Below, piece by piece: positions 8,858 through 33,696 of a stretch of 64,000 nucleotides of DNA. This stretch comes from Crossiella sp. SN42. Its GTDB lineage: Bacteria; Actinomycetota; Actinomycetes; Mycobacteriales; Pseudonocardiaceae. How positions within the stretch are numbered: the stretch's first letter is position 1; each line of letters starts with the position of its first letter. The notes under the pieces were generated by a model. That model saw nothing but the letters and a program-made list of their open reading frames with translations, did not search any database and was not told where the DNA came from. The position numbers and the translations under genes were made by a program. Where the stretch lies: the NCBI RefSeq assembly GCF_023897065.1, contig NZ_JAMHIV010000009.1:124001-188000 (forward strand), in the 5' to 3' direction.

Positions 8858-8860
8858 GAA

Positions 8861-9749: not shown

Positions 9750-9779
9750 CTTCGGTACTGTATCGACCTGATCAAACGA

Positions 9780-16374: not shown

Positions 16375-16534
16375 GGCGTGTCGTCACAGCCCCGCCAGCG
16401 GTAGCCGCGCCGGTTTGGTCGCTGGCGGCACGGCCGGAACGCCCGGATACACCCGGTATGGGGGCATGCCGGCCGTACCGCCAGCGACCAAACCGATCAC
16501 GACTCCCGCAGACGGGGCTGTGACGACACGCCCT
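16373..16534. mobile_element. 162-bp palindromic MITE-like element
   Basis: Outer arms of 22 bp are perfect inverted repeats (16373-16394 and 16513-16534, beginning AGGGCGTGTCGTCACAG). Inner arms of 27 bp (16411-16437 and 16469-16495, beginning CGGTTTGGTCGCTGG) match with one mismatch. There is no coding capacity. The left end overlaps the dinB stop codon; the right end is 5 bases from the convergent universal stress gene. CTAG (left) and CTCG (right) flank the GGCGTG ends, an imperfect candidate target duplication. It could instead be an unusually elaborate bidirectional terminator. Confidence 0.6.
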
Positions 16535-16539
16535 CGAGC

Positions 16540-17436
16540 TCAGGACTTCGGGGCGCGGACCACGGCGACCGGTCCGTGCGCGTAGTGCACGACCGCGTGA
16601 CTGACCGAGCCCAGCAGTAGCCGTCGGAACGCGCCCCTGCCGTGGCTGCCGACCACGATCAGCGCCGCGTCCTTGCCGCGTTCCAGTAGCGCGTCCGCGG
16701 GCTTCTCGGTGGTCACGACCTCCTCGACCGGGATGTCCGGCCGCTCCCGCCGCAGCGGCAGGAGCCATTGCGCGAGCAGTTCCTGGCCTTCCTGGTGCAT
16801 GATCTTCGGGTCGAAGTCCCAGGCGCGGACCGGGCCGAAGGCGTCCAGCGGCAGGTCGCTCCAGGTGTGCACGGCGACGATCCGGCGGTGGTGCCGGGCG
16901 GCGAAGTCGAAGGCGAAGTCCAGGGCGGCCGCGCTGGTCTCCGAGCCGTCCACGCCGACCACCACCGGGCCCTGTTCGGGATCGGCGGGGGCGCGCAGCA
17001 CGACCACCGGGCAGGCCACGCCGCGGACCACGCTGGAGGCGATCGACCCCAGCCGGATGCCGGTGGCGGCCGATCTGCCCGCGGCGCCGAGGACCAGCAG
17101 GTCGGCGCCCTTGCTGTGCTCGACCAACACGTCGAGCGGGTCGCCGGGGACGAAGTCGCCGTGCACGTCCAGCTCGGGGTGGGCGGCGCGGCACTGCCGC
17201 ACCAGTTCGGCGAGGGACTGCTCGACCCACTCCCGCACCGAGTCCTGTTCCACCGCGCCCTCCGGCAGCGCGCCGACGCCGTAGCCGGGGGCGGTGACCT
17301 CGTGTGCCCACACCAGCCGGAGCGGCAGGTTCCGCAGCCGGGCCTCGGTGGCCGCCCACTCGGCCGCGGCCGCCGCCGAAGGCGAGCCGTCGACCCCTGC
17401 GACCACCCGTGCGTCAGGTTCCAGGTCAGCCGTCAT
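16540..17436 (-). CDS. Tandem-domain universal stress protein
   Basis: 298 residues with two UspA domains. Domain 1 starts VVAGVDGSPSAAAAAEWAA and ends with LLVLGAAGRSAATGIRLGSI; domain 2 starts VVVGVDGSETSAAALDFA and ends LIVVGSHGRGAFRRLLLGSV, followed by VVHYAHGPVAVV. Both carry the G-x2-G-x9-G-S/T ATP-binding pattern. Such two-domain proteins are common in actinobacteria, often under dormancy or stress control. The ATG at 17436 has AGGA just upstream; an upstream extension reaches into the divergent aguA region and is unlikely. Divergent from the agmatine deiminase with about 100 bases between the starts. Confidence 0.92.
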   Translation of the reverse strand: MTADLEPDARVVAGVDGSPSAAAAAEWAATEARLRNLPLRLVWAHEVTAPGYGVGALPEGAVEQDSVREWVEQSLAELVRQCRAAHPELDVHGDFVPGDPLDVLVEHSKGADLLVLGAAGRSAATGIRLGSIASSVVRGVACPVVVLRAPADPEQGPVVVGVDGSETSAAALDFAFDFAARHHRRIVAVHTWSDLPLDAFGPVRAWDFDPKIMHQEGQELLAQWLLPLRRERPDIPVEEVVTTEKPADALLERGKDAALIVVGSHGRGAFRRLLLGSVSHAVVHYAHGPVAVVRAPKS

Positions 17437-17504
17437 ATTCCTGACTACCCCTCTCGACAACCGGCAAACAGGACGCCTGCTCGCGTCGGCTCCCGGCCAG
17501 TTTG

Positions 17505-17518
17505 ACTGAATTTTCAGT
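17505..17518. promoter_or_regulatory. Candidate TetR operator between usp and aguA
   Basis: ACTGAATTTTCAGT has perfect 6-bp arms (ACTGAA/TTCAGT) around TT. It is AT-rich in a GC-rich background and lies 20 bases upstream of the aguA start, in front of the aguA-tetR pair. Confidence 0.55.
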
Positions 17519-17537
17519 AGATGGCAAGGTGGTCCAC

Positions 17538-18581
17538 ATGTCGCCGAACAGCGAGAACAGTCCACCCATCGCGGGGTGGCGCATGCCGGCCGAGTGGGTT
17601 CCGCATGCCCGCACGTACCTCTCCTGGCCCGCGCACACCTCGCTGTACCGAGCCGACCTGCCCGCCGTCCGCGACACGGTGGCTCGGCTGGCCAGGGCCG
17701 TCGCCGACCACGAACCGGTGGCCCTGCTCGCCCGCCCGGAGCACCGGGACGCCGCCCAGCGGGCGGTCGGTGGCGCGGTCGAGGTGCTGCCCATCCCGGT
17801 GGACGACCTGTGGACGCGCGACCACGGGCCGACCTTCGTCAGCAGGCCCGGTGCGGTGGCCGGGGTCGACTTCGGGTTCAACGGCTGGGGCGACAAGCAG
17901 CACCCGCATGAGGACGACCACCGCGTGGCCCGGCGATTACTCGACCACCTCGGCCTGCCCCGGCTCGCGGCCGGGATCGTGGCCGAGGGTGGCTCCCTCG
18001 AGGTCGACGGCGAGGGAACCCTGCTGGCCACCGAGAGTTCGCTGCTCAACGACAACCGCAACCCGGGTCGCGACAAGGAACACGTGGAGGCCGTGCTCGG
18101 CGAGCTGCTGGGCATCGACAAGGTCATCTGGCTGGCCGGTGTCCGGGGTGCGGACATCACCGACTGCCACGTCGACGCGCTGGCCCGGTTCGCGGCCCCC
18201 GGCGTCGTGCTGCTCGACCGTCCGGCCGCGGGTTCCGCACCGGATGAGTGGACGGCCGTCAGCGACCAGGCGCTGAAGGCGCTCCAGCACGCCACCGACG
18301 CGCGGGGGCGCCCGCTGGAGGTGGTCGAACTCCCGGCGCCGGACCGGTCCCGGATCCGTGGCTCCGGCGACTTCCTGGCCAGCTACCTCAACTACTACGT
18401 GGCCAACGGTGCGGTGTTCGTCCCCAGTTTTGGTGACGGACGGGCCGACGACCACGCCCGTGGCCTGCTGGCCGAGCTGCACCCTGGTCGTGCGGTCGTC
18501 CAGCTCGACATCGACCCCATCGCCCGATACGGCGGTGGCATCCACTGCGCGACCCAACAGGAGCCGGCCATGACAATGTGA
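17538..18581 (+). CDS. aguA: Agmatine deiminase (peptidyl-arginine deiminase family)
   Basis: 347 residues from the ATG at 17538, which has AAGGTGG six bases upstream (an in-frame TTG at 17502 would lie on the operator). Converts agmatine to N-carbamoylputrescine and ammonia. Visible family features: WPAHTSLYRADL near the N-terminus, LWTRDHGPTFV, AEGGSLEVDGEGTLL, NDNRNPGRDK, ADITDCHVDALARF with the active-site His, and the C-terminal catalytic Cys in GGGIHCATQQEP. No putrescine-producing hydrolase (aguB) is adjacent. Followed four bases later by a TetR regulator, so the pair is probably bicistronic and self-regulated. Confidence 0.92.
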   Translation: MSPNSENSPPIAGWRMPAEWVPHARTYLSWPAHTSLYRADLPAVRDTVARLARAVADHEPVALLARPEHRDAAQRAVGGAVEVLPIPVDDLWTRDHGPTFVSRPGAVAGVDFGFNGWGDKQHPHEDDHRVARRLLDHLGLPRLAAGIVAEGGSLEVDGEGTLLATESSLLNDNRNPGRDKEHVEAVLGELLGIDKVIWLAGVRGADITDCHVDALARFAAPGVVLLDRPAAGSAPDEWTAVSDQALKALQHATDARGRPLEVVELPAPDRSRIRGSGDFLASYLNYYVANGAVFVPSFGDGRADDHARGLLAELHPGRAVVQLDIDPIARYGGGIHCATQQEPAMTM

Positions 18582-18585
18582 TCCC

Positions 18586-19203
18586 GTGAGCGAAGCGCCC
18601 GACCGACGGCAGGCCCTGCTGGAAGCGACCTGCCGGATGATCGCCCGCACCGGCGTCCGCGGCCTCCGCGTGGAGGAGGTGGCGCAGCAGGCCGGGGCCT
18701 CCACCGCGTTGATCTACTACTACTTCAAGAGCCGGAGTGGCTTGCTGGCGGCGACCATGCGGTTCGTCGACGAGCGTGCCGCGGAGTACACCCAGTCCAG
18801 CCAGGGCGACGGGTACGAACGGCTGCTCGACAACCTCCAGCGCGAGTTCCAGGACAAGCGCCGGGTCCGGGAGAACTCCGCGGTCTGGGGTGAGCTCCGG
18901 GCGGCGGCCGTGTTCGACAAGGCGTTGCGGGAGATCGTGGGCAACGCCGGGCTCCGGTGGGGCAAGTACATCGCCGAGCTGATCGAGCAGGGACAGGAGG
19001 ACGGCAGCATCTCGACCACGGTCGATCCGGCGGCCGCGGCGGTCCGGTTCACCGCGCTCGTGGAGGGGCTCAGCTCACGCTGGCTGGCCAAGCTGCTCAG
19101 CACCGAGCAGGCGCACGCGGCGGTCCGGGCGGCGGTGTCGGCCGAATGTCTGCCGGGGCGGCGACCGAGCGTCGCGCCGGAGCGGACTGCTCCGACCGTG
19201 TGA
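18586..19203 (+). CDS. TetR/AcrR-family regulator
   Basis: 205 residues, GTG start. The N-terminal helix-turn-helix is at residues about 10-55 (ALLEATCRMIARTGVRGLRV then EEVAQQAGASTALIYYYF and KSRSGLLAATM). The ligand-binding domain is helical and ends in a proline/arginine-rich tail. It starts 4 bases after aguA and probably represses the aguA-tetR pair through the AT-rich palindrome at 17505, with agmatine or a polyamine as a reasonable guess for the ligand. Confidence 0.9.
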   Translation: MSEAPDRRQALLEATCRMIARTGVRGLRVEEVAQQAGASTALIYYYFKSRSGLLAATMRFVDERAAEYTQSSQGDGYERLLDNLQREFQDKRRVRENSAVWGELRAAAVFDKALREIVGNAGLRWGKYIAELIEQGQEDGSISTTVDPAAAAVRFTALVEGLSSRWLAKLLSTEQAHAAVRAAVSAECLPGRRPSVAPERTAPTV

Positions 19204-20383: not shown

Positions 20384-20917
20384 GTGGTTCGGTGGTCTTG
20401 GACGCGTGGGCTGATGGGTGTCACGGCGGTGGCGCTGGCGGGTGTGCTCGGCGTCCTGGCGGCGGCTCCCGCTGAGGCCCTGCCGCGGCTTGGCGTGTCG
20501 CAGTGTCTGGGGACGCAGACACTCACCTTCGATCCGCCGCTGACGCTGACCTCGCGGCCGACCACGATCAGGTTCGTCGAGGAGTTCGGCACCTGCCTGC
20601 TCGGTGGCGTCTCCTCGGCGCGCGGCTCCGGTGAGTCGACCGAGACGACCAGCGCGGTCGCGGTGACCATCCCGACCGCGGAGGCCACCTACCACTGGAA
20701 CACCGGGCGCGGCAGCACCGTGCACTGGGCGAGGAACGTGGTCGCCAAGGTGAACGGCAGCATCGTGGTCACGGCTTTTGGCACCGTCACCGACGGTCTG
20801 TTCCGGGGGGCCTTGGCACAGAGCGTGGTCGTGCTGCCCGAGCTGGACCTCACCGCGGCGCTGGGCGAGGGAGTGTCCAGGGTGAGCGGGCTGGACACGC
20901 TGACCATCCTCCGGTGA
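20384..20917 (+). CDS. Small secreted protein, unknown function
   Basis: 177 residues from a GTG with GGAGG correctly spaced. A Sec signal peptide is evident: Arg-rich start VVRWSWTRG, hydrophobic LMGVTAVALAGVLGVLAAAP and a cleavage site at AEA. The mature part of about 145 residues is Thr/Ser/Val-rich and has two Cys (SQCLGTQ, GTCLLGG) that may form a disulfide. The pattern suggests a beta-sandwich, but I do not recognise the family. The stop codon overlaps the GTG of the next gene (GTGA), so its translation is coupled to the fused ATP-grasp/decarboxylase enzyme; the association is unusual because the partner looks cytoplasmic. Confidence 0.75.
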   Translation: MVRWSWTRGLMGVTAVALAGVLGVLAAAPAEALPRLGVSQCLGTQTLTFDPPLTLTSRPTTIRFVEEFGTCLLGGVSSARGSGESTETTSAVAVTIPTAEATYHWNTGRGSTVHWARNVVAKVNGSIVVTAFGTVTDGLFRGALAQSVVVLPELDLTAALGEGVSRVSGLDTLTILR

Positions 20918-23676
20918 CCGGCGCGCCCCTTGGCGACATCGAGGGGGTTGAGGCCGGGGCCGGGCTGCGCCTGCTGGGCCAGCTGGTCGACGAGGCCGTG
21001 TGGCTGGACCACTGTCCGTTCGTCTACGCCTCGTGCCAGCCGTCGCCCGGCTGGCTCCGGCACGAGCAGGTCTCGGCGTTCCAGCCGCTGCCCACGCCGC
21101 CGCCCGGCCACCTGCCTCCTGCGGTGGCTGACCAGCGCCGCGTCTGCGTGTCCTTCGCGCCCGAACACGGCGACAACGCCCGCACCTGGGCGGGCACCCA
21201 CGGCTACCGCCTGCTCGCGCCCGCGCCCGAGCTGACCGCCTGGGCCGCGGACAAGATCGCCGCCGTCGGGTTGTTCGCCAGGGCGGGGGTGGCCAGCCCG
21301 GAGTCGGTCGTCGTGCCGGCGCGCGACCGCATGGCCGCCTCGGCGTACTGGCACCCGGAGTGGCCGAGGACGGTCGCCCAGCGCCGGGAGAACAACCTCA
21401 TCGGCCACGGCACCCGCGTCCTCGACTCGGTCGCGGACCTGCGGGACTGCCTGGCCGAGTGGCCGGACCAGCCGATCAAGCTGAGCCGGTTCCACCCGGG
21501 GATCTCGCTGACCGTCACGGCCTGCGCCGGCGGTGACCGCACCGTCGTCTCGGCGGTCTCGCACCAGCTGGTCGGCCTGCCGGAACTGGCCGCGGCCTGG
21601 GGTTCACACTGCGGCAACCAGTTGGTCGCGCCCGACGAACTGCCCGGCGATCTCTACCGGCAGGCCAGGCTCGCCGCCTGGCGGGTCGGTGAACTGTTGC
21701 GGGCCAGGGGTTTCCGCGGCATGTTCGGGCTGGACCTGGTGGCCGACTCCGGCCGGCTGCTGGCCATCGAGGTCAACCCGCGGTTCCAGACCGTGGTCTC
21801 ACTCGTCCAGGCCGTGGAGAGCGACTGCGGGCTGCTCCCGGCGCTGGGCCTGCACATGCTCGCCTTCCTCGCCCCGGCGCTGCCGCCCACCTCGGGCCGG
21901 ACCTACCCGGCCGGATCGCGGTACAGCCAGCTCGTTGTGCACGCCCCCGCCGACCTCACCCTGTCCGAGGTCCCGCCCTCGGGGCACTACCGAGCCGACG
22001 GCCGCGACCCTCTTCCCGGTCCGGACCGGCTCACCGACGTCACGGCGGGGGAGGCCGTGTGGTGGGCCATCGCGGGGCCGGGGCCGATCTGGGCTGGTGA
22101 GGAGATCGGTCTGCTCCAGTTCAGCCGGCCGGTCGCCGCCAGGGAACCCCGGCCGCGCCCCAGTGCCGAGGCGCTGAGCTGGATCAGGTCCTTCCAGCTA
22201 CGGTGTCGTGGGGCCACCAGCTCGCTCCCGCCGCTGCGCATGGGCGAGGCGGACATGCGTCGGGCGGGCAGGCATGCGATCGAGCTGATCATCAAGCGGG
22301 TCTCCACCACCGGGGACCGCCCGGCCTGGCACGTCCCGGCCCCTGAAGTCCTGCGCGCGGTCTTGGACGAGCCGCTGCCCGAACACGGCGTCGACGACCT
22401 GCCCGCCCTGCTCGACCAGGTCACCGAGCAGGCGCTGGCCGAGGCCACCCGGCTGGACCACCCGCGCAGCTTCGCCTTCGTGCCGGCCACCGGGAACTTC
22501 CCCGCGGTGCTGGCCGACGCGCTCGCCGCCGCCTACCTCTCCGTCCCCGGCGCTTGGTTTGTCGGCGCGGGCCCCACCCAGCTCGAACTGACCACGCTGA
22601 ACTGGCTCAAGGCACTGCTCGGTCTCCCCGCGGGCCACGGCGGACTCTTTGTCAGCGGCGGGTCCGTGGCCACCCTGACCGCCCTGGCCGTGGCCAGGGA
22701 CCAGCATCTCGACGGCCACCGCGAGCGGGGACGCCTGTATTGCTCCACTCAGGCCCATCCCTCGGTGGCCCGCGCAGCGCACCTGATCGGCCTGACCCGC
22801 GACCAGTTGCACGTCCTGCCCGCTGACGAACAGCTGCGGCTCGACCCCGCCGCGCTCGCCGAGCAGATCAGCCGCGACCGGGACCGGGGGCACCGGCCCT
22901 TCGCCGTCATCGCCACCCTCGGCACCACCGGCACGGGCGCCATCGACCCGCTCGCCGAGCTCGCGGACCTGTGCGAGCGCGAGGGCCTGTGGCTGCACGT
23001 CGACGGCGCGTTCGGCGCCGCCGTGGCCGCCACCAGCCGCGGCCGGCACCTGCGCGCCGCGCTGGGCCGGGCCGACTCGCTCACCGTCGACCCGCACAAG
23101 TGGCTCTTCCAGCCGTACGAGATCGGCTGTGTCCTGCTGCGCAGGCCCGAACTGCTGCCCGCCACCTTCAGCCTGGCGCGCCACGCCCTCGACAACGCCT
23201 ACCTCGACCCCGCCCACGCGCCCGGCACCGAGACCAACCTCTCCGACCACGGTCCCCAGCAGAGCCGGGGGCTGCGGGCGCTGAAACTGTGGCTGTCGTT
23301 GAAGACCTTCGGCGCGGCGGCCTTCCGGGACACCATCGAGCGCGGCATCGACCTCGCCGAACACGCGGGCACCCTGATCCGGGCCCATCCCGAGCTGCGT
23401 CTGGTCACCCCGCCCAGCCTTTGCGTGCTCACCTTCGCCTACCGCCCGCGCCGGGTCCCCGCCGACTGGGACGGCGACCGCGCGCAGCAGCGGATCAGCC
23501 GCGCCGTCTGCGCGGGTGGGGACGGCCTGGTGCTGACCACCCGCGTGCGCGGCGCGGTGGTGCTCCGCCTGTGCACGATCAATCCGGCCAGCACTCGTGA
23601 GGACGTGGAAGCCGTCCTCGACCTCGTGGTCAGCCACGGCCGCGAGCTCCAGACGTCCGAGGCCGTGCGGCACTAG
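20914..23676 (+). CDS. Fusion: ATP-grasp ligase plus PLP-dependent group II decarboxylase
   Basis: 920 residues in one uninterrupted frame. Residues about 90-330 are ATP-grasp: Lys114 in ADKIAAVGLFARAGVASPES, PIKLSRFHPGISLTV, and the Mg-binding LLAIEVNPRF with Glu286. From about residue 443 it is a full-length aromatic-amino-acid-decarboxylase-like domain: LFVSGGSVATLTAL, STQAHPSVARAAHLIG with the cofactor-stacking His, VIATLGTTGTGAIDPL, LHVDGAFGAA with the pyridine-binding Asp, and TVDPHKWLFQP with the Schiff-base Lys729. Both active sites look intact. ATP-grasp enzymes join carboxylates to amines; the decarboxylase would yield an amine, so a coupled amide/amine-forming activity is plausible. 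Substrates unknown. GTG start overlaps the upstream gene; ends one base from the convergent NACHT gene. Confidence 0.88.
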   Translation: MTGAPLGDIEGVEAGAGLRLLGQLVDEAVWLDHCPFVYASCQPSPGWLRHEQVSAFQPLPTPPPGHLPPAVADQRRVCVSFAPEHGDNARTWAGTHGYRLLAPAPELTAWAADKIAAVGLFARAGVASPESVVVPARDRMAASAYWHPEWPRTVAQRRENNLIGHGTRVLDSVADLRDCLAEWPDQPIKLSRFHPGISLTVTACAGGDRTVVSAVSHQLVGLPELAAAWGSHCGNQLVAPDELPGDLYRQARLAAWRVGELLRARGFRGMFGLDLVADSGRLLAIEVNPRFQTVVSLVQAVESDCGLLPALGLHMLAFLAPALPPTSGRTYPAGSRYSQLVVHAPADLTLSEVPPSGHYRADGRDPLPGPDRLTDVTAGEAVWWAIAGPGPIWAGEEIGLLQFSRPVAAREPRPRPSAEALSWIRSFQLRCRGATSSLPPLRMGEADMRRAGRHAIELIIKRVSTTGDRPAWHVPAPEVLRAVLDEPLPEHGVDDLPALLDQVTEQALAEATRLDHPRSFAFVPATGNFPAVLADALAAAYLSVPGAWFVGAGPTQLELTTLNWLKALLGLPAGHGGLFVSGGSVATLTALAVARDQHLDGHRERGRLYCSTQAHPSVARAAHLIGLTRDQLHVLPADEQLRLDPAALAEQISRDRDRGHRPFAVIATLGTTGTGAIDPLAELADLCEREGLWLHVDGAFGAAVAATSRGRHLRAALGRADSLTVDPHKWLFQPYEIGCVLLRRPELLPATFSLARHALDNAYLDPAHAPGTETNLSDHGPQQSRGLRALKLWLSLKTFGAAAFRDTIERGIDLAEHAGTLIRAHPELRLVTPPSLCVLTFAYRPRRVPADWDGDRAQQRISRAVCAGGDGLVLTTRVRGAVVLRLCTINPASTREDVEAVLDLVVSHGRELQTSEAVRH

Positions 23677-23677
23677 C

Positions 23678-26600
23678 TCATGGGGTGGCGTGCGGCCAGG
23701 GGACGTCACCGCCGAGGAGGCGGAGCCAGACGTTGTGCGCGCGGTGGCCGAGGTCCGGGCGGACCGTGGTCAGCTCGGTCCAGGTCTCGGGGTCCAGGTC
23801 AGCCAGCGGGTACGGGTTGGTGGCTGGTTCGCGTTCGAGCAGCGTGACCAGGGCTTCCAGCGCCAGGGGAGTGGGGTCGTTCGTCAGGGCGTCGGCGATC
23901 AGGCTGGTCAGGGCGGCGATCAGCTCCGGGGTGGGCGGTTCGGGGCGGGTGAGCAGGGTGAGGGCGTGGCGCAGGGCTCGGCGTTCCAGAGTGGTGGCGC
24001 GGTGCGGGAGGCGGGACAGGTGAGTGGTCAGCTCGGCGAGTAGCTGGGCGGCCAGGGGGAGTGGGGAGCCAGGGTCGGCGGCCATCAGGGTCAGCACGAG
24101 GTCGAGGCTGGCCAGGCGGTCCGGAGAGTCCGGTTCGCCGGGCAGGGCGGTGATCGAGCGGAGGCAGCGCTGGTACTGGGCGGCGCGGTCCTCGGCGGTG
24201 TGCCGGTAGGGCAGGGTCAGCAGGTCGAGCACGGCGCGGGGGCGGGTGGGCAGGAGCTTGCCGTCCGCGACGGGGTACAGGGCGTAGAACGGCTCCAGGT
24301 GGTCGAACAGCGGTTCCAGCACGTGCAGGTTGATGTCCTCGTTGCCGCACAGGAAGTGCAGCGTGCGGCGCTGCGCCCGCGGGGTCTGGTTGACGAACTG
24401 GACGCCGGTGGAAAGGGGGTGGATCCCCTGCGGGCGATGGGTCGACCAGGTGAGGTCGAGAGCGGGCGGGGTGAAGCCGCCGTCGTCCAAGCGCAACTCC
24501 AGGTCGCGGCGAGGGCCGCGCCAGGTGCGGGTGAGGGCGAGGCTTTCCACCAGGCCGGTCCAGTCCTCGCTGCTGAGCTGGGAGCGCCACAGCAGGGTGT
24601 CACTCTGCCAGTGCCGCACCACCCCCGGCTCCTCCTCCGCCTCGCCGTAGAGCTCGCTGGCGCGCAGCGTGCCCTTGGTGATCACCGTGAGCAGCAACAG
24701 GTTTGCGCGGTAGGCTGCGTGCTGGGCGGGGACGGTCATCGGGCGGGGCTGGTAGTCGCCGTGGCTGCGGGTCGGGTGCGTGCCGGGGGCGTCGCGGTAC
24801 AGCCGGATGAGCAGGATGACCAGCTGGCTGCGGAGGTCGGGTGCGGTGGCCTCGGCGAGCTCGGTGAGGAAGGTCAGCACGGGGCGGCGGCTGCTCAGCG
24901 GGGTGTGCGCGAGCAGGGCGTGCGGGAAACCGTCGTTGAGCGGGACCACCGCCAGCGGGTTGGCCGCCGCGGCCTGGGCCATCGCGTTGAGGCCGTGCAG
25001 GGCCTGCCAGGTGAGGCGGGCGACCAGGTACTCGCCGAAGGTGGCGTGCAGGAACTCGTAGGTGCGCAGCCGCCGGTCGTCGCGCTGGGCCTCGGCCCGG
25101 TGGATGAAGAAGAACCGGCCCAGCGTGGACTCCGCGGGACCGAGCGGGGTGCGCGCGCCGGTCAGCGGGCCGCTCCTGACGCCGAGCAGGGCGGCCAGGT
25201 CCGCGTCCAGGTCGGGTTCGGTGATCCACTGCTGGCCGCGGTTGAACATGCCGAAGGCCACCACGGACAGCCGTCGCAGCTCCTGCTCCACCGCGGCCCG
25301 CAGCTCCGGCTCGGGCAGTCCGGCGCGGGTCTTGCGCACCTCGCGCAGCGCGAACCGGTGCAGCAGCCGGTCATACAGGTCGCTCTCGCGCAGTTGGGCC
25401 TCGCGCAGGTCGCCGCCGTCGGCGTCGTAGATGGCGAGCATCAGCAGCAGCAGCGGCTGGGTGGCCAGCGCGGGATAGCGCATCGCGGTCTGGGTGGTGA
25501 GGCGGAACCGGGAGCCGGAGTTGCTGGCCTGCCAGTGCGCCAGCCAGCGGGACACCCTCGGCTCGTCGAAGGGTTCCAGCCGCAGCGCCACGCATCCATG
25601 CGGTATACGAGCGCGGTCGGCGACCGTGGTGCGGGTGGTCACCACCACCGCGACCGGGCGGCCCTGCGCCGCCTCGCGCTGCTGGAACGCGCGGACCCGC
25701 TCCAGGTAGTCGCTCTGGCTGACGCCGGTGGTCTGCAGCAGCTCGTCGAACCCGTCCAGCAGCACCACCGGCAGCGCGTCCCCCGCCGAGCCCGCCAGCT
25801 CCGGCCAGTCCAGCCGGTACCCGGTGCCGAGCCGGACGGCCTGCTCGATCTGGGTCTGCACGTCGACCTCGGTGGCCACCTCGCGCAGCGGCACCCGCAC
25901 CGGCAGGAAGTCCGTGGCGGGCAGCCGGGCCGCGAGCACCTTGGTCAGCACCGACTTGCCGGACCCCGGCTGCCCGAGCACCAGCAGTGGCAGCTCGGCC
26001 GCCTGCGGGGAGGTGAGGTGACCGGCCAGGAAGGCCTGGATGTCGTGCCGCAGCGGCACTTCCTCCCACCACGGCTCCTGGCTCGGGGTGTCGCCCGCGG
26101 CGATTTCCCTTACCCGGCACAGCGGATCGACGTAGGCCTGGCCGAGGACGGGGATGCGGAAGTCGGCGGGCAGCTCGTCGGGCTCGACCACCGGCCGGTT
26201 CAGCTGGGCCTGGTAGCCGCGGGCCAGTTCGGCACGCCGGGCGTCCGGGTCCCGGCCGGTGGCGATCGCGGCCAGCTGCGTCTGGAGCTGGACCAGGCCG
26301 GTGCGGATGAGCTCCTGGGTGCCCTGGTGCTCGGTGAGGTTGGCCCAGAACGCCAGTTCCGGGCACTCGACGGCGAGCTGCCGGAACAGCTCCTGGTACC
26401 GCGCGAGCGCCTGGGTGACCAGCCGGTCCTCGGTCTGCGCGGTGAACCGGTCGCGTTCGGTCTGGTTCCACCGGTCCCACACCGCGAGCCCCATCACGAA
26501 CAGGATCAGCGCGTTGGCCTGCGCGTGGTAGTACAGGGTGAGCGCGCGCAGGTGCTCGCGGTACGGGCTCTGCGGAGTCGGCAGGGGAGCGGCGCTGAGC

Positions 26601-26974
26601 AGCAGCTCGCGGACCAGTTCCGTTGTGCTGACCCGGCTGTCCAGCAGCTCCTTGGGATCCGGCCGGTGCGGCAGCGCCTGGAACGCCTCGACGAAGGCCA
26701 GGGTCACGATGATCGCGTGCGCCGCTTCCAGTCGCTGGGAGCGGTCGAACCGGTGCAGCCCGCGGATCCGGCCGGAGAGGCCGTTGACCAGATCATGGCC
26801 GTGCTTCACCAGCTCCGCCTTGGCGTCGAACCAGCCGAGCACCTCCGCCACCCCGGGCGCGGCGCCGAGCATGGCGGCGCCGGTGATCCGGTCCAGCCAG
26901 GTGACGGCCTTGCTTTCCTTGCCGCCCAGCAGTCGCACCGCGTCGGCGTAGCTCAGGGTCCGCAGCACGGTCAC
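23678..26974 (-). CDS. NACHT-type STAND NTPase (second of a tandem pair)
   Basis: 1098 residues. The N-terminal helical region of about 300 residues (RTLSYADAVRLLGGKESKAV onward) resembles NACHT N-terminal helical (NNH-type) domains. The NTPase core has Walker A LGQPGSGKS near residue 335, Walker B VVLLDGFDELL near 407 and the sensor-like VVVTTRT. LHRFALREVRKT and RTYEFLHATFGEYLVARLTW close the NACHT module. The remaining C-terminal half is helical, with Leu-rich repeats-like segments such as LPLAAQLLAELTTHLSRLP. No membrane segment. GTG start overlapping the upstream paralogue (GTGA). Bacterial NACHT proteins include anti-phage effectors; a defence role here is inferred. Confidence 0.88.
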   Translation of the reverse strand: MTVLRTLSYADAVRLLGGKESKAVTWLDRITGAAMLGAAPGVAEVLGWFDAKAELVKHGHDLVNGLSGRIRGLHRFDRSQRLEAAHAIIVTLAFVEAFQALPHRPDPKELLDSRVSTTELVRELLLSAAPLPTPQSPYREHLRALTLYYHAQANALILFVMGLAVWDRWNQTERDRFTAQTEDRLVTQALARYQELFRQLAVECPELAFWANLTEHQGTQELIRTGLVQLQTQLAAIATGRDPDARRAELARGYQAQLNRPVVEPDELPADFRIPVLGQAYVDPLCRVREIAAGDTPSQEPWWEEVPLRHDIQAFLAGHLTSPQAAELPLLVLGQPGSGKSVLTKVLAARLPATDFLPVRVPLREVATEVDVQTQIEQAVRLGTGYRLDWPELAGSAGDALPVVLLDGFDELLQTTGVSQSDYLERVRAFQQREAAQGRPVAVVVTTRTTVADRARIPHGCVALRLEPFDEPRVSRWLAHWQASNSGSRFRLTTQTAMRYPALATQPLLLLMLAIYDADGGDLREAQLRESDLYDRLLHRFALREVRKTRAGLPEPELRAAVEQELRRLSVVAFGMFNRGQQWITEPDLDADLAALLGVRSGPLTGARTPLGPAESTLGRFFFIHRAEAQRDDRRLRTYEFLHATFGEYLVARLTWQALHGLNAMAQAAAANPLAVVPLNDGFPHALLAHTPLSSRRPVLTFLTELAEATAPDLRSQLVILLIRLYRDAPGTHPTRSHGDYQPRPMTVPAQHAAYRANLLLLTVITKGTLRASELYGEAEEEPGVVRHWQSDTLLWRSQLSSEDWTGLVESLALTRTWRGPRRDLELRLDDGGFTPPALDLTWSTHRPQGIHPLSTGVQFVNQTPRAQRRTLHFLCGNEDINLHVLEPLFDHLEPFYALYPVADGKLLPTRPRAVLDLLTLPYRHTAEDRAAQYQRCLRSITALPGEPDSPDRLASLDLVLTLMAADPGSPLPLAAQLLAELTTHLSRLPHRATTLERRALRHALTLLTRPEPPTPELIAALTSLIADALTNDPTPLALEALVTLLEREPATNPYPLADLDPETWTELTTVRPDLGHRAHNVWLRLLGGDVPWPHATP

Positions 26975-29940
26975 GCTCCCGGTCGGAGGCTGTTGATGAC
27001 GAGGTGGCAGCGGTCAAAGCTCGGCAGGCTGGCGCGGAGGCGTTTCTGCGCGCGTTCCCGCAGTGCCACAAGTTCGTCGACGCCCAGGACGGTGTCCGCG
27101 GCGAGCCGCTCCAGGATGAGCGTTAGGTACAGGTCATACTCCTCGCCGGTGAGGTCGTCTTGGTTGGCCGCCAGGTAGTCGAACGCCCGGTGGTAGAGCG
27201 CGAACCGGTCCTGGGGTCTGACCGGACGGGCGGAGAGCAGCCACAGGTCCATGATCCGGCGCGCGGGAGAGGGCTCGATGACGCCGTTGACACAGGGCAA
27301 CTTGTTGATCGCCGAACCGAGGTGTCGCAATAGCGGCTCCACCGCGTGCAGCAGGAAGACCTCCATGCCGAGCAGGTGGTTCCGGCGCTGGATCTGCTGC
27401 GGGTCCTGATCGATGTGGCCATAGGTTCCCCCGCTGGCGGGACGGTCACCGAACAGGCCAGGCAGTTCGACTGTCGGCGGCGGGTCGTTCGCCTTACGCA
27501 ACCGCACCCAGGCCTGGCGTCCCTGGCCAGAGGAACGGTAGGTGACGGTGAGGGTTTCCAGGATGCTGAGCCAGCCCGGACCGCCGAGCTGGGAGTGCCA
27601 GAAACGGGCCTCCTGGTGCCAGCGGGCGGGCGCGCTGACCGGCACCTCGTCGTCGACGATCACGTTGAGCAGCAACAGGTTCACGCTATAGGCCGCGTGC
27701 CGGGCCGGAACCTCGCGCGGGCTCGGCCGGTAGGTGGCGTGGCGGCGCTGGGCGCGTTCCTGGTGCGCCGTGCGGAACAGGCGGTTGAGCAGGTCGGCGG
27801 TCGCCTGCCGGGTTGGCTCGTCGAGGCGGCCGGCCAGTTCGGCCAGGAAGGTGAGCACCGGGCGGCGAGTGCTGAGCGGCTGGAAGGAGATCAGCGCGTG
27901 CAGGAGGTCGTCGTTGACCTCGGTGGTCGCGTAAGGGTCATCGGCGATGGCTTTTTCCTGTGCCACCAGGCCTTGCAGGACCTTCCAGGTGAAGCGGGCC
28001 ACCAGGTATTCGCCGAAGGTGGCGTGCAGGAACTCGTAGGTGCGCAGGCGGCGGTTGTCGCGGCTGGCTTCGGCGCGGTGGATGAAGAAGAAGCGGCCCA
28101 GGGTCTGTTCGGCCTCGGTCAGGCGGGCTTGCAGGCTTTGTGCGGCAACGGGTTCGCGGGGTGGGCCGGGGAGGGCGGCCAGGTCGGTGTCCAGGTCGGA
28201 CTCGGCGATCCACTGAGTGCCGCGGTTGAACATGCCGAAGGCGACCACGGACAGGCGGCGCAGCTCCTCCTCCACCGAGCGGCGGATCTCCTTGTCGGGC
28301 AAGGCGTCCTGGGTCTTCACCACCTCGCGGCGGGCGAAGCGGAACAGCAGGCGTTCGTAGAGCTCGCTCTCGCTCAGGCCTTCCTCGGCGGTCAGCGCGC
28401 CGCCCTCGGAGTGGTACAGGGCGAGCATCAGCAGCAGGAGGGGCTGGGTGGACAGGGCGGGGTGGCGGAGGGCGACTTCGGCGGGCAGGGGAGTGAAGCC
28501 GGGGCCGGTGTTGGCGGTGTTCCAGCGGTCGAGCCAGGTGGTGACCCTGGGCTCGTCGAAGGGTTGCAGGCGCAGGGCGATGCTGCCGTCGGGGATGCGG
28601 GCGCGGTCGGCGACCGAGGTGCGGGTGGTCACCACGACCGCGACCGGGCGGCCGGTGTCGGACTCGCGTTCCTGGAACTCGCGCACCTTCTCCAGGTAGT
28701 TGCTCTGGCTGACGCCGGTGGCCTGCAACAGCTCGTCGAAGCCGTCGAGCAGGACCACCGGCAGCGCGTCGCCTGCCGAGCGCGAGAGTGCGGGCCAGGA
28801 CAGGGATTCGCCGGTGTCGGCGCGGATGGCCTGTTCGATCTGGGACTGGATGTCGTTCTCCGCGGCCACATCGCGCAGCGGGACCCGCACCGGCAGGAAG
28901 TCGGTGGCGGGCAGGCGGGCGGCCAGCACCGAGGTGAGCATGGACTTGCCCGAACCCGGTTGGCCCAGCACCAACAGCGGGAGCTGCGCCGCGATCGGGT
29001 TGGTCAGGTAACCGGTCAGGAAGTCGTGGATGTCGGTGCGGTCGGGCAGGTCGAGCCACTCGTGCTCGTGCGCGGGTGTGCGGCCCTCGGCGGCCAGCAC
29101 CCGGAAAACCGGGTCCACGTAAGCCTTTTCCAGCGCTGGGATGCGCAGGTGGGCGGGCAGGTCGCCGCCGAGGACCGGGCGGGTCAGCTTGGCCTGGTAG
29201 CGGCGGGCCAGCTCGGCGCGGCGGGCATCCGGCAGGCGGCCGGTGGCGATCTCGTCCAGGCGGGCGGCGAGGGCGGACAGGCCGGTGCTGACGGTGGCGC
29301 GGGTGGCCTGGTGGTCGGTCAGGTTGGCCCAGCAGGCCAGTTCCGGGCACTCGGCGGCCAGTTGGCGGAACTGGTCCTCGTACTGGCGGACCGCGTTGTC
29401 CGGCACCGACTTCAGCAACGTGGTGCGGACCCGGTCGCGCTGGGTTTCGTGCCAGCTGTCCCAGATCGCCAGCGCGGGCAGTTCCGCGGCCAGCGCTTCG
29501 GCACGGGTGCGGTAGTGGGCGCGCAGGGCGGCCAGGTTGTGCTCGTACGGGTGTTCCGGGCTGGGCAGCGGGAGCGGGGTGCTGAGCAAGTCGCGGACAG
29601 CCTGGTCGAAGCCGCGGGACTGGCCCTTGGCGGCGGGTAGCGGCAGGTCGGCGCAGGCGGTGAGGAAGGCGGTGGTGACGATGATCGCGTGCGCGGCTTC
29701 CAGGCGCTGGGTGCGGTCGAAGCGGTGCAGGCCGCGCAGCCGCCCGGACAGGCCGGTGACCAGGTCGTGGCCGTGCCTGACCAGGTCGGACTTGGCGTCG
29801 AACCAGCTCAGCACCTCCTCGGCGCCGGGGGCGGCGGCCAGCATCGCGCCGCTGGCGAGGCGGTCCAGCCAGGTGACGGCAGGACTCTGGCCGCCGTCGA
29901 GCAGCCGGACCGCGTCGCGGTAGCTCAGGATTCTCCGCAC
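26971..29940 (-). CDS. NACHT-type STAND NTPase (first of a tandem pair)
   Basis: 989 residues, GTG start. The architecture and much of the sequence match the downstream paralogue. The N-terminus RRILSYRDAVRLLDGGQSPA aligns without gaps with its RTLSYADAVRLLGG counterpart; Walker A is again LGQPGSGKS (about residue 327), Walker B VVLLDGFDELL (about 398), then VVVTTRT and RTYEFLHATFGEYLVARFTW. Past about residue 700 the two diverge strongly in sequence and length. That pattern suits a shared oligomerisation/NTPase engine with different recognition domains. Its start is 29 bases after the ABC permease stop on the same strand, so it could be part of a transporter operon. Confidence 0.88.
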   Translation of the reverse strand: MRRILSYRDAVRLLDGGQSPAVTWLDRLASGAMLAAAPGAEEVLSWFDAKSDLVRHGHDLVTGLSGRLRGLHRFDRTQRLEAAHAIIVTTAFLTACADLPLPAAKGQSRGFDQAVRDLLSTPLPLPSPEHPYEHNLAALRAHYRTRAEALAAELPALAIWDSWHETQRDRVRTTLLKSVPDNAVRQYEDQFRQLAAECPELACWANLTDHQATRATVSTGLSALAARLDEIATGRLPDARRAELARRYQAKLTRPVLGGDLPAHLRIPALEKAYVDPVFRVLAAEGRTPAHEHEWLDLPDRTDIHDFLTGYLTNPIAAQLPLLVLGQPGSGKSMLTSVLAARLPATDFLPVRVPLRDVAAENDIQSQIEQAIRADTGESLSWPALSRSAGDALPVVLLDGFDELLQATGVSQSNYLEKVREFQERESDTGRPVAVVVTTRTSVADRARIPDGSIALRLQPFDEPRVTTWLDRWNTANTGPGFTPLPAEVALRHPALSTQPLLLLMLALYHSEGGALTAEEGLSESELYERLLFRFARREVVKTQDALPDKEIRRSVEEELRRLSVVAFGMFNRGTQWIAESDLDTDLAALPGPPREPVAAQSLQARLTEAEQTLGRFFFIHRAEASRDNRRLRTYEFLHATFGEYLVARFTWKVLQGLVAQEKAIADDPYATTEVNDDLLHALISFQPLSTRRPVLTFLAELAGRLDEPTRQATADLLNRLFRTAHQERAQRRHATYRPSPREVPARHAAYSVNLLLLNVIVDDEVPVSAPARWHQEARFWHSQLGGPGWLSILETLTVTYRSSGQGRQAWVRLRKANDPPPTVELPGLFGDRPASGGTYGHIDQDPQQIQRRNHLLGMEVFLLHAVEPLLRHLGSAINKLPCVNGVIEPSPARRIMDLWLLSARPVRPQDRFALYHRAFDYLAANQDDLTGEEYDLYLTLILERLAADTVLGVDELVALRERAQKRLRASLPSFDRCHLVINSLRPGA

Positions 29941-29969: not shown

Positions 29970-30710
29970 TCACTGCCAGCGGAACAATTTTGCCGCACCG
30001 AAGAGGGCCGCGGCGGCGAAGGCGGCCGTCACCGCCAGGTGCAACGGGTTGGGCCAGTTGCCGGACCAGGCCGCCTGCATCGCCTGGGTGCCCGCGCCGA
30101 GCGGGCTGAACTCGCCGATCCGGCGGACCAGCTCCGGCATCAGCGGGCCCGGCGTCCACAGCCCGGCCAGGAACATCAGCGGGAAGAGGACGACGGTGCC
30201 GATGCCCTGGGCGGCCTTGGTGGTGGGCGCGACCGCGGCGATCAGCAGGCCGAGGCCGAAGATCGCGAGCGTGGTGAGCAGGAAGGCCAGCAGCGCCCCG
30301 ACGAGGTTGCCGGGCAACGGGACGCCGGCCACGATCCCGCCGAGCGCCATCAGCAGGACGGTGGCGACGGTGACCATCAGCAGCTGTACCAGCAGCTGCG
30401 CGATCAGCAGCCGGATCGGCGGCACCGGGGTGGTGGCCAGGCGGCGCAGCACACCCAGCTCGCGGTAGCCGGCCAGGCTGCCGGAGAGCGTGCTCAGGCC
30501 CAGCATGCCCACCGACATCGTGATCAGGGTGGGCAGGTAGAAGTCCACGATCCGCGCGCCGCCGTAGGCCGCCTGCGGCTCGCGGAAGAACGGGGTCAAG
30601 CCGAAGACCAGCAGCAGGATCGGGCCGAGCCCGAGGCTGAGCAGCACGGCGGCCGGATCGCGCAGGAACAGGCGCGCTTCGGTGACGGTCAGGCGGGTCA
30701 GGGCGGTCAT
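29970..30710 (-). CDS. ABC-2 type transporter permease
   Basis: 246 residues with six hydrophobic segments in the ABC-2 arrangement: the N-terminal EARLFLRDPAAVLLSLGLGP, a central YRELGVLRRLATTPVPP loop, and LFPLMFLAGLWTPGPLMPEL near residue 180. The domain exports drugs, lipids or polymers when paired with an ATPase. The ATG overlaps the stop of the ATPase by 4 bases, so the two form one exporter. Cargo unknown. Confidence 0.9.
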   Translation of the reverse strand: MTALTRLTVTEARLFLRDPAAVLLSLGLGPILLLVFGLTPFFREPQAAYGGARIVDFYLPTLITMSVGMLGLSTLSGSLAGYRELGVLRRLATTPVPPIRLLIAQLLVQLLMVTVATVLLMALGGIVAGVPLPGNLVGALLAFLLTTLAIFGLGLLIAAVAPTTKAAQGIGTVVLFPLMFLAGLWTPGPLMPELVRRIGEFSPLGAGTQAMQAAWSGNWPNPLHLAVTAAFAAAALFGAAKLFRWQ

Positions 30711-31636
30711 CGGTCGGTTCCGTTCTCGTCGTCGGTGAGCGGGGCCCCGGTGAGGGCCAGGAAAGCGTCGTCCAAAGTGGACTGTTCGACGCGCAGGTCC
30801 AGCGGGGTGAGCCGGTGCGCGGCCAGCGTGGTGACCACGGCGTTGAGCAGGTTTCCCTTGCCGGAGACGGTGATCGCGCGGTGCTGGCGGGTCAGGCCGG
30901 TCACCTCGGGCAGCTCGCGCAGCAGGTGCTCGGGGAGTTCCCCGTCGAGGCGGAAGGTCAGCCGCTGCTCACCGTCCACTGTGGACACGAGTCCGGCCGG
31001 AGTGTCCACCGCGACCACCCGGCCCGCCTCGATCACCGCGAGCCGGTCGCACAGGTGCTCCGCCTCGGCCATGAAATGGGTGACCAGCAGGATGGTCACC
31101 CCGCGCTCGCGGACCTGCTCGATCAGCCGCCAGGTGTCCCGGCGGGCCTGCGGGTCCAAGCCGGTGGTCAGCTCGTCCAGCACCGCGATCTCCGGGTTGC
31201 CGATCAGCGCCAGCGCGATGGACAGCCGCTGCTTCTGGCCGCCGGAGAGCTTCTTGAACGGGGTGCGCCGGTGCTCGGCCAGGCCGAGGGTGTCCAGCAG
31301 CGCGACCGGATCGGCCGGGTCCGGGTAGAAGGAGGCGTACAGCTCGACCGCCTCGCCGACCCGCAGCTTGTCCGGCAGCGCCGCCTCCTGGAGCTGCACG
31401 CCGACCCGGCGGCGCAGCCGGTCGCCGTCGGTGGCCGGGTCCAGGCCCAGCACGGACAGGCGGCCGCCGTCCGGGACGCGCAGCCCGGTCAGGCACTCCA
31501 CTGTGGTGGTCTTGCCCGCGCCGTTGCGGCCCAGGATCCCGAAGATCTCCCCGCGCTCGACCCGGAAGGACACGTCCGCGACCGCGACCCGGTCGCCGTA
31601 CCTCTTGTGCAGGTTCGCGACCTCGATGACCGGCAT
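30707..31636 (-). CDS. ABC transporter ATP-binding protein (DrrA-like)
   Basis: 309 residues. Walker A GRNGAGKTT near residue 38, signature LSGGQKQRLSIALAL near 138, Walker B EIAVLDELTTGLDPQARRDT (Glu replaced by Asp-Glu order typical of DrrA-like members) and H-loop LLVTHFMAEAE. The C-terminal extension of about 90 residues resembles the DUF4162-type tail of DrrA-like exporters. ATG at 31636 chosen because GGGAG lies upstream; the longer frame runs into the promoter palindrome. Two copies of the iterated 13-bp motif (one exact, one with a mismatch) fall inside this gene. Divergent from a two-component system that may sense the exported compound. Confidence 0.92.
   Translation of the reverse strand: MPVIEVANLHKRYGDRVAVADVSFRVERGEIFGILGRNGAGKTTTVECLTGLRVPDGGRLSVLGLDPATDGDRLRRRVGVQLQEAALPDKLRVGEAVELYASFYPDPADPVALLDTLGLAEHRRTPFKKLSGGQKQRLSIALALIGNPEIAVLDELTTGLDPQARRDTWRLIEQVRERGVTILLVTHFMAEAEHLCDRLAVIEAGRVVAVDTPAGLVSTVDGEQRLTFRLDGELPEHLLRELPEVTGLTRQHRAITVSGKGNLLNAVVTTLAAHRLTPLDLRVEQSTLDDAFLALTGAPLTDDENGTDR
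30974..30986. repeat. Iterated near-palindrome, reverse orientation
   Basis: GTCCACTGTGGAC inside the ABC ATPase gene; a 12/13 copy (GTCCAAAGTGGAC) is at 30770-30782. Confidence 0.8.
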
Positions 31637-31722
31637 CTCCGCCAGCTCCCTTCTCGTTCCGCTGTTGACACCGCGAAACGCTAGGAACTCGCTGACCTGC
31701 GCGGAATGCGTCTGGGACCCGA

Positions 31723-31750
31723 CTGGGGGTTGGGCTAGCCCCACCCCCAG
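31723..31750. promoter_or_regulatory. 28-bp palindrome in the ABC/two-component divergent promoter
   Basis: CTGGGGGTTGGGCTAGCCCC followed by ACCCCCAG is palindromic around GGGCTAGCCC with a single mismatched pair. It is centred about 100 bases from the ABC ATPase start and 88 bases from the kinase start, so it may be an operator for the adjacent NarL-type regulator. Confidence 0.55.
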
Positions 31751-31824
31751 CACGGTGCCTGGACGCATCGCCCGCGCCGGGGCGGGTCGGTCAGACTGGG
31801 CCGGCTGGGAACGGAGGTGCGCGG

Positions 31825-33696
31825 ATGGTCCGCCGGTATGGCACGGCCCTCGGCCGCGCGCTTTGGGTGCTCGCGCTCGCGGTACCCGCGCTGGGCGTGC
31901 TGGTGGTGGCGCTGCTGAGCTTCCTGCCCTCGATGTTCGGGCTGGTGTTCTGCTACGGGTGGGGGCTGCGCCACGGCCGCCCGTTCCTCAACCGGGTGCG
32001 CGCCACGGTGAGCCGGTGGTCCGGGACCACCGTCGCCCCGCCCTACCGCTCCCGGCCGCCGCTGCCCGAACCGGAACCGGATGGGCTCTCCCGGTGGCGG
32101 GACCAGCTGTACCGGTCGCGGCGCTGGCTGCGGGTCAACCACCACCTGGACTGGGTCTCCGAGGATCCGGCGAGCTGGCGGGACCTGCGCTGGCTGCTGG
32201 TCAACCCGGTGCTCGCGCCGCTGACCGTGCTCGGCACGGTGCTCGCCGGGCCGCGTGCACTTCAGGTATACAACCGGTGGACCGCACATATGCTCGGTCC
32301 GCGCGAGCCCTCGGCCGCGAACCGGTTCCTGCACCGGCTCTTCCACTGCTGGGAGGCGTCCTGGCGCGGGTTCCTGCTCGGCCTGCTCGCGCTGGCCGGG
32401 CTGCCGATCCTGGTGGTCAACCTGGCCGGGTTCGTCCTCCACCACGTGTTCGGCACCTGGCAGTTCTGGTGGCCGCCGCTGGTGGAGTACACCCGGCAGT
32501 TCACCGACCTGCACCGCCGCCTGCTGCGCGAGTGGGCGGGCATCGAGATCCCGGACCCGTACCTGCCCGCGCCGCTGCCGCCCCGGCCGGAGCCCGGCGG
32601 CAAGTACCGCTTCGGCAACCAGCTGTTCAGCACCGACGCGCCGGTGCGGCGGATGCGCCGCTACAGCTGGGTGATGACCGACCGGGCCGTCTGGCGGGAC
32701 CTGCTGTGGCTGCTGGCCAACACCATCGTGGCCCCGGTGCTGGTGCTGCTGCCGCCGCTGGCGGCCACCGGCGGGTTCCTGCTCGGGGTGTGGCTGCCGG
32801 TGGTGGTCTCGCCGGTGCTGTCGCTGTTCTTCGGCCGGGACATGCTGCCCACGATGTACCAGTGGCTGCCGTGGGACCCGGTGCCGACCACCCTTTTCCG
32901 CACCCTCGGCCCGCTGATCGGGCTGCCGGTGGCGGTACTCGCTGTGTACACCGCGCCCACACTGCTGCTGGCCTACGGCCGCTGGTGCGCCTGGCTGCTC
33001 GCGCCGACCAAGGCCGCGCTGCTCGCCCGGCGGGTACGCGGGCTGACCGAGAGCCGCAGCGAGGCGGTGGACAGCCAGGCCGCCGAGCTGCGCCGGATCG
33101 AACGCGACCTGCACGACGGCGCGCAGGCCCGGCTGGTCGCGCTGGGCCTGAACCTCGGCGCGGCCAGGGCGCTGGTGGACACCGATCCGGTGCGCGCCAA
33201 GGAAATCCTGGACCAGGCGCTGGCCTCCTCCTCGGCCGCGCTGACCGAGCTGCGCGAGCTGGTGGCCGGCATCCACCCGCCGGTGCTGGCCGAACGCGGC
33301 CTGGCCGAGGCGATCCGCTCGGTCGCGCTGGACGCCGCGCTGCCGGTGCGGGTGGAGGGCGCGCTGCCCGGCCGGTTCGAGCCGCCGGTGGAGTCCGCGG
33401 CCTACTTCGCGGTGTGCGAGGCGATGACCAACGCGGTCCGGCACGCGGAGGCGACCGAGGTCGTCGTACAGCTCGTATACAACGCGGATACCTTGCGCAT
33501 CACCGTGGTGGACAACGGGTGTGGCGGCGCGGACCCGGCCAAGGGCAGCGGGTTGCGGGGCATCCGGCGCAGGCTGGCACCATTCGACGGTCAGCTCACC
33601 CTGGACAGCCCGCCGGGCGGTCCCACGACGGTCCGCCTGGAGATCCCGTGCGCGTTGTCCTCGCCGAGGACCTCTACCTCCTCCGAGACGGCCTGA
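31825..33696 (+). CDS. NarL-type sensor histidine kinase with duplicated Sensor domain
   Basis: 623 residues, ATG behind GGAGG. Two membrane-rich sensory modules each open with a similar motif, ASWRDLRWLLVNPVLAPL near residue 112 and AVWRDLLWLLANTIVAPV near 290, so the PF13796-like Sensor domain appears duplicated. The catalytic part has the HisKA_3 helix IERDLHDGAQARLVALGLNL with its phosphoacceptor His, then an HATPase (CEAMTNAVRHAEA, DNGCGGAD, GLRGIRRRLA). This kinase type usually pairs with LuxR-family regulators controlling a neighbouring ABC exporter. Its last 49 bases overlap the regulator gene in another frame. Confidence 0.92.
   Translation: MVRRYGTALGRALWVLALAVPALGVLVVALLSFLPSMFGLVFCYGWGLRHGRPFLNRVRATVSRWSGTTVAPPYRSRPPLPEPEPDGLSRWRDQLYRSRRWLRVNHHLDWVSEDPASWRDLRWLLVNPVLAPLTVLGTVLAGPRALQVYNRWTAHMLGPREPSAANRFLHRLFHCWEASWRGFLLGLLALAGLPILVVNLAGFVLHHVFGTWQFWWPPLVEYTRQFTDLHRRLLREWAGIEIPDPYLPAPLPPRPEPGGKYRFGNQLFSTDAPVRRMRRYSWVMTDRAVWRDLLWLLANTIVAPVLVLLPPLAATGGFLLGVWLPVVVSPVLSLFFGRDMLPTMYQWLPWDPVPTTLFRTLGPLIGLPVAVLAVYTAPTLLLAYGRWCAWLLAPTKAALLARRVRGLTESRSEAVDSQAAELRRIERDLHDGAQARLVALGLNLGAARALVDTDPVRAKEILDQALASSSAALTELRELVAGIHPPVLAERGLAEAIRSVALDAALPVRVEGALPGRFEPPVESAAYFAVCEAMTNAVRHAEATEVVVQLVYNADTLRITVVDNGCGGADPAKGSGLRGIRRRLAPFDGQLTLDSPPGGPTTVRLEIPCALSSPRTSTSSETA

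Follow-up and report, generated by a model that had tools for sequence, protein, structure and literature searches.

Tandem NNH7-NACHT genes in Crossiella: candidate NLR-like sensors with two variable zones

Results

The window analysed here, a 64,000-nucleotide stretch of a Crossiella genome (G000; 9.7 Mb, 82 contigs), carries two large STAND protein genes head to tail on its minus strand: gene A, the upstream member of the pair (26971..29940, 989 residues), and gene B, the downstream member (23678..26974, 1,098 residues). Both start at GTG codons, at 29940 and 26974 respectively, and the stop of A overlaps the start of B by the four nucleotides GTGA (26971..26974), the tandem arrangement that an earlier note on this DNA had reported. 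The 4-nt overlap recurs in G004, a genome of the same species, and gives way to a 3-nt gap in G001 and G003; translational coupling of A and B through the overlap appears likely from this spacing.

Each protein begins with an NNH7 domain, a name that follows Pfam usage (PF22738; A residues 3-209, 29314..29934, 226 bits, E 8.7e-67; B residues 5-215, 26330..26962, 230.8 bits, E 2.9e-68; both minus strand), and these scores, against a curated cut-off of 27 bits, place both in the NNH7 family. The Pfam NACHT model (PF05729) matches the correct region under its cut-off of 26.7 bits (18.9 bits in A, 16.7 in B), so the assignment to the NACHT clade rests on motifs, NNH7 and fold. Walker and winged-helix labels follow common usage, and the three engine motifs quoted in the earlier note are present in both proteins. 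Walker A, LGQPGSGKS, occupies residues 325-333 of A (28942..28968, minus) and 333-341 of B (25952..25978, minus), its P-loop residues being invariant in a 12-row alignment, and the winged-helix motif RTYEFLHATFGEYLVAR aligns at 27994..28044 in A and 25016..25066 in B, both on the minus strand. The same Walker A (LGQPGSGKS), Walker B and winged-helix (TYEFLHATFGEYLVA) sequences occur in every A and B of the four pair genomes and in the single B-type gene of the fifth, and the STAND set of Walker A, a DGxDE Walker B and a winged-helix FLH is intact in A of four and B of five Crossiella genomes.

AlphaFold models of A and B, built on 12-row alignments, have mean pLDDT values of 73 and 72, a moderate confidence, with residues ~13-76 poor and residues 821-889 of A of low confidence. 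The C-terminal region, a putative sensor that is mostly helical in these models, spans residues 681-989 of A (26971..27900, minus) and 691-1098 of B (23678..24904, minus), and for it Pfam, NCBIfam (over cut-off) and PDB sequences gave no match. A Foldseek search with the B model returned NOD2, NLRC4 and NLRP3 as top solved folds (best E 3.3e-8) at low global TM scores (0.22-0.26 by query over the first seven matches), and the motor probably drives this match. A sequence-profile search of solved structures gave weak P-loop-region matches only (best E 0.12), the NCBIfam search gave no match over family cut-offs, and Pfam matched no CARD, PYD or leucine-rich repeat family in either.

Aligned by domain, as the earlier note had proposed, A and B share 63% identity (429/676 aligned) over A residues 1-680 and 34% (106/308) over residues 680-989; the C-terminal ends thus share as little as that note claimed and are not as similar as the NTPase-bearing part, while remaining alignable over their full length, with ~109 additional residues in B. 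By alignment columns, identity is 72% (1-105), 38% (106-200), 67% (201-690) and 33% (the rest), and the two low values mark one variable zone within NNH7 and another at the C-terminal end. The close similarity claimed for the core therefore stands and that of the N-terminal helices does so in part, being interrupted at columns 106-200, and divergence is not confined to the C-terminus as had been supposed. Gene conversion of the engines was considered and rejected: in 50-column windows over columns 1-700 of the four genomes with the pair, the synonymous A/B difference was 0.24-0.51, never near zero; the longest identical A/B DNA run per genome was 38-69 nt, in the winged-helix region; and the A and B clades remain separate in the engine tree.

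Between G000 and G004, C-terminal dN/dS is 0.63 (A) and 0.59 (B), compared with 0.07 and 0.15 in the NTPase, a pattern that matches what a recognition end would show. This supports the earlier note's picture of duplicated tandem NACHT-type receptors in which a conserved engine is joined to fast ends. Over seven comparisons C-terminal dN/dS ranged from 0.34 to 1.0 and never exceeded 1, and relaxed constraint therefore fits as well as diversifying selection. At equal core identity, comparators with C-termini as low as those of A/B numbered 2/38 in G000 and 2/37, 3/38 and 6/41 in the other three pair genomes, these comparators not being mutually independent (25 distinct loci for A0/B0). The analysis used 75 of 84 rows, with nine altered downstream copies (described below) left out and cross-genome A-B pairs dropped. 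The same count for other tandem pairs was 21/57 (L097), 38/38 (L098), 31/34 (L106), 311/445 (L107), 8/21 (L109), 6/34 (L093), 7/36 (L094) and 12/40 (L122), with no common trend in C-terminal divergence relative to core identity. That the A/B C-termini are no more divergent than expected was rejected, the 0.60-0.65 bin (21 pairs) being mostly or entirely A-B pairs and other comparators putting A/B low. A C-terminal domain swap was also set aside: an A+B clade is absent from the C-terminal trees, yet such a clade is not rejected (p-AU 0.177).

These rates bear on an explanation that we regard as unlikely, in which A and B are redundant duplicates under relaxed constraint, the C-terminus being merely tolerant of change and the pair having no joint function. 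It would accommodate the absence of C-terminal dN/dS above 1, the way in which C-terminal divergence tracks engine divergence across the family, a copy number that varies at fixed addresses (A absent in G002; a pair or a single gene at a second locus) and the truncated copies of other genomes. However, the low motor dN/dS (0.07-0.15 in G000/G004) indicates that both copies are kept functional, the C-termini of A and B are less alike than their core identity would lead one to expect, and the search for tandem homologues that the earlier note had called for found tandem NNH7 pairs at four separate addresses.

The second variable zone is a hypervariable block within NNH7, at residues ~102-194 of A (29359..29637, minus; 38% identity to B compared with 72% just before) and ~106-200 of B (26375..26659, minus), recognised in B by an identity dip and by its replaced appearance between G001 and G003. 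Dips at the NNH7 block and the C-terminus occur in most of the 14 orthologue or relative pairs compared, the dip in the block being slight or absent in the closest pairs (for example B of G000 and G004). Between G001 and G003, the B proteins share 95% identity over columns 201-690 and 92% over the C-terminus, but only 62% over columns 106-200. Over codons 102-200 they differ at 76 of 297 nt, compared with 156 of 2994 elsewhere (30/99 and 95/998 at third positions), a clustering reached in 0 of 5000 permutations; dS is 0.39 over columns 101-210 and 0.11 and 0.13 in the flanks, and this raised dS points to recombinational replacement rather than selection alone. When these two close Crossiella species are compared, the block of B thus looks as if it had been replaced as a whole, which hints at recognition or assembly specificity in a part of the protein usually regarded as the effector. 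The B orthologues with the replaced block (codons ~102-200) lie at L058 (15122-18412) and L060 (11380-14670). In four relatives (G108, G585, G437 and G676) the NNH7 model matches the two ends only, up to ~102-108 and again from ~190-200, the middle being shortened and aligning poorly.

Several ideas about NNH7 were tried and not upheld. As an element that distinguishes partners, the block should stand out in tandem pairs, but it is no more divergent in tandem partners than elsewhere: 26 of 38 comparators are equally low for A0/B0, the exception among tandem pairs being L106 (0/34). Coevolution of block and C-terminus was rejected at a partial correlation of just 0.19, B of G001 and G003 being a case of one altered without the other. 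An apolar, potentially membrane-inserting NNH7 segment is strong in the relatives L054, L097 and L098; in A and B the corresponding values are 0.86 and 1.22, compared with 1.58 and 1.52 elsewhere in the protein, and the segment was not retained for them.

The locus occupies one address in all five Crossiella genomes, flanked by a DinB-type polymerase gene and by transglutaminase, DUF58, MoxR-type ATPase and mraZ genes (Pfam names). A B-type gene is present there in 5/5 genomes and orthologues of A in 4/5, G000 included in both counts. In G002 the single B-type gene starts 15 bp past the transglutaminase gene, and A, the ABC pair and the divergent histidine kinase are missing from that place. 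A and B form sister groups (100/99) in the engine tree, with the G002 gene nested in B and A outside; because the G002 gene falls inside B, the A/B duplication is older than the G002 split and A was probably lost in G002. This tree has 38 rows, a second engine tree 55, and the C-terminal trees 37 and 34, the rows omitted being cross-collection duplicates of one gene, fragments below 900 aa and some long-branch rows.

Upstream of A by 29 bp lies an ABC-2 permease gene (29970..30710, minus; Pfam), overlapped by an ABC ATPase gene (30707..31636, minus; Pfam and orthologues) whose ORF start could be 31768; together with a divergent histidine kinase this ABC pair fills positions 29970-33696 of the window. 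The permease-A order is kept in all four genomes with A, and the permease is missing together with A at the G002 locus; permease and A probably form one transcription unit. Tail to tail with B, a 920-aa ATP-grasp/PLP decarboxylase fusion (20914-23676, plus strand; Pfam) is present in G004 and had no match at the locus in G001, G003 or G002. A search for sigma-70-type promoters found none, and terminator-like sites numbered 2 against a shuffle mean of 2.4, no excess, both searches being uninformative in DNA of such high GC content. A second NNH7 locus, with the same flanks throughout, holds a tandem pair in G001 and G003 and a single gene in G000 and G004; the two pairs, NNH7-NACHT like the first, lie at L093 (6981-14304) and L094 (7100-14450). 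At L096 (5775-8048, in G004) a different NACHT protein of 758 aa, with Pfam NACHT over cut-off, is encoded by a gene that overlaps the start of a third NNH7-NACHT gene (8030-11125), another kind of tandem NACHT pair.

Beyond Crossiella, NNH7 occurs in 65 of 249 genomes of the family (62 over cut-off) and 13 of its 46 genera, a patchy distribution, in 37 of 394 genomes of the class (36 over cut-off) and, in a second actinobacterial family (f19), in 60 of 150 genomes, 59 of them over cut-off. The idea that the homologues are strictly core genes of the genus therefore holds in part, for B and largely for A at the shared address, and fails for the domain outside the genus. Four records of a plasmid collection carry relatives of B, three of them Streptomyces plasmids of 0.5-0.7 Mb and the fourth, at 11.9 Mb, looking like a chromosome; no relative of B was found in phage records. 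In G059, G130 and G142, NNH7-NACHT copies are split, truncated or interrupted by stops, which signals gene turnover.

A and B are candidate defence proteins, and the surroundings of their homologues argue neither for nor against a defence island. PADLOC 2023 models matched A and B with 0 families at E up to 0.01. A scan of 120 of the 145 listed neighbours at 12 of 13 homologous loci (E up to 1e-5) matched 30 defence families in all, as a raw count; among the 25 listed most were matched by one protein each, some of them strongly (a DinG-type helicase model at 1.2e-126). The matches assigned to a locus were those of L101, namely LmuA and LmuB together with weaker ones to LmuC and BovA, and here one clear system, a Lamassu-like LmuABC, was resolved. 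The NNH7-NACHT gene of L101 is surrounded by these Lmu genes, by a Schlafen/AlbA_2 gene and by one for a TPR-CHAT protein (1838-5348, 6904-8043 and 14720-18928). Other neighbours, by Pfam, include TruB, glutamine synthetase, Orn/Lys/Arg decarboxylase, uricase, an MFS transporter and a glycosyltransferase, and at L049 an integrase and a transposase-like protein.

Such neighbours raise a further explanation, that A and B are STAND regulators of envelope stress, development or kin recognition tied to the ABC transporter or cell-wall genes, with no part in defence. Several homologues do adjoin ordinary metabolic genes, the locus keeps its address beside the polymerase, transglutaminase, DUF58, MoxR-type and mraZ genes in all five genomes, and A is always accompanied by the ABC pair, both being missing together at the G002 locus. 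We nevertheless consider it improbable: the ABC pair has no blastp match at 10 loci of other genera, G002 retains B without ABC genes at the locus, and a patchy distribution combined with fast sensor ends resembles that of conflict proteins.

Plants and animals use paired NLRs, and the earlier note had offered a sensor/helper arrangement for A and B, in which the two form a mixed oligomer, one detecting and the other executing, after the manner of NAIP/NLRC4 or the NLR pairs of plants. Its clearest counterpart lies in family f19, which we take, as a guess, to be near Micromonosporaceae, and where NNH7 genes come in twos at 13 loci, seven drawn from the class sample and six more from the sample of f19 itself. 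A uracil-DNA-glycosylase-family gene accompanies 10 of the 13 and a Sir2-family gene 11, with both at nine and at least one at 12; neither was seen in the L124 stretch. In eight loci (L104, L105, L108, L110, L123 and L125-L127) the downstream copy is altered, with DGLEE, DGVEE or DGIED replacing DGFDE and FTH, FSH or FTD replacing FLH; its apolar segment is shorter, and it lacks the hypervariable zones. L124 runs into a contig end and has an N-terminus of the altered-downstream type, its motifs not being visible. The remaining four loci have two canonical copies each, at L107 with another gene between them. Mean identities over NNH7 core, block, engine and C-terminus are 0.62, 0.41, 0.68 and 0.52 among the upstream copies of the eight altered pairs and 0.77, 0.76, 0.70 and 0.73 among the downstream copies, and the three altered copies included in the second engine tree form one clade on a long stem. 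From sequence alone, these ung-sir2 pairs look like a variable sensor with a conserved helper.

For A and B themselves, a sensor/helper division is doubtful. The two genes overlap or nearly touch in one orientation, which favours co-expression, and the eight complete ung-sir2 pairs, with variable upstream members (0.41 in the block, 0.52 in the C-terminus) and uniform, motif-altered downstream members (0.76 and 0.73), show a form that such a division could take. In Crossiella, by contrast, both engines are canonical in 4/4 pair genomes, both copies vary in block and C-terminus, and a B-type gene is solitary in G002. Because the Crossiella pair lacks the altered-downstream signature, parallel receptors are the better reading of A and B.

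Discussion

On balance we favour, with somewhat better than even confidence, the view that A and B are two complete NLR-like sensors working in parallel, which arose by a tandem duplication predating the split of the sampled Crossiella species. The locus provides a shared architecture with intact motifs, a duplication, two variable zones and one orientation with coupling-type spacing. A and B would be made together from one operon, each receptor being kept off in an ADP state until a trigger, probably a component of a phage or some disturbance of a host process, is sensed by its C-terminal helical domain, which evolves fast. Nucleotide exchange and oligomerisation by the NACHT motor would follow, and the response, probably an arrest of growth or the death of the cell, would come from the NNH7 helical domains thus brought together. 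The two proteins would act on different triggers in parallel rather than as sensor and helper, with B presumably independent of A in G002, because the B-type gene stands alone there, and the variable NNH7 block may add a copy-specific partner or assembly specificity. Weighing against parallel defence sensors are the genus-stable address beside core genes and the lack of a PADLOC match to A and B.

A broader and speculative proposal, to which we assign a rather small chance, is that NNH7-NACHT proteins form a bacterial paired-NLR family with two independent specificity zones, the Crossiella pair being its symmetrical form and the ung-sir2 pairs true sensor/helper units; the swappable block would then separate co-expressed assemblies or mark kin, comparable to self/non-self recognition by fungal NLRs. 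Because pairs of both forms, symmetrical and asymmetrical, occur in this family at fixed addresses, the evolution of NLR pairing and specificity could become testable in bacteria. Our searches of open-licence papers turned up no account of what NNH7 does, nor of sensor/helper pairs among bacterial NACHT proteins.

Among known systems, bNACHT proteins such as bNACHT25 resemble A and B in having an N-terminal domain, a NACHT motor and a C-terminus taken as the sensor, and for a relative an effector-NACHT-sensor plan and experimental phage defence are described (PMC12169576, from which the terms NCH1 and SNaCT come). The same article reports that the H506L change makes bNACHT25 hyperactive, and the winged-helix His of A and B may correspond to this H506. 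bNACHT25, studied in E. coli, carries a nuclease as its effector and ends in NCH1, whereas A and B have an NNH7 domain without known activity and a C-terminus without a Pfam match, and their genes are paired. The animal NLRs NOD2, NLRC4 and NLRP3, the best Foldseek matches of the B model, differ from A and B, in which no CARD, PYD or leucine-rich repeat family was matched and global TM is low. Duplicated NACHT targets of DGRs are already in print: those of Thiohalocapsa are, like A and B, duplicated and neighbouring with a variable end, but there a reverse transcriptase mutates this end, which is a C-type-lectin domain (PMC10907252), and Pfam finds no C-type-lectin variable domain in A or B. 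Plant and animal sensor/helper pairs likewise consist of adjacent NLR-like genes (PMC9975940, abstract); unlike them, the Crossiella copies are symmetrical, and only the f19 ung-sir2 pairs are asymmetrical. A and B would thus be full-length bacterial relatives of animal and plant immune receptors, with a conserved motor and two fast-changing regions, that look like parallel danger sensors.
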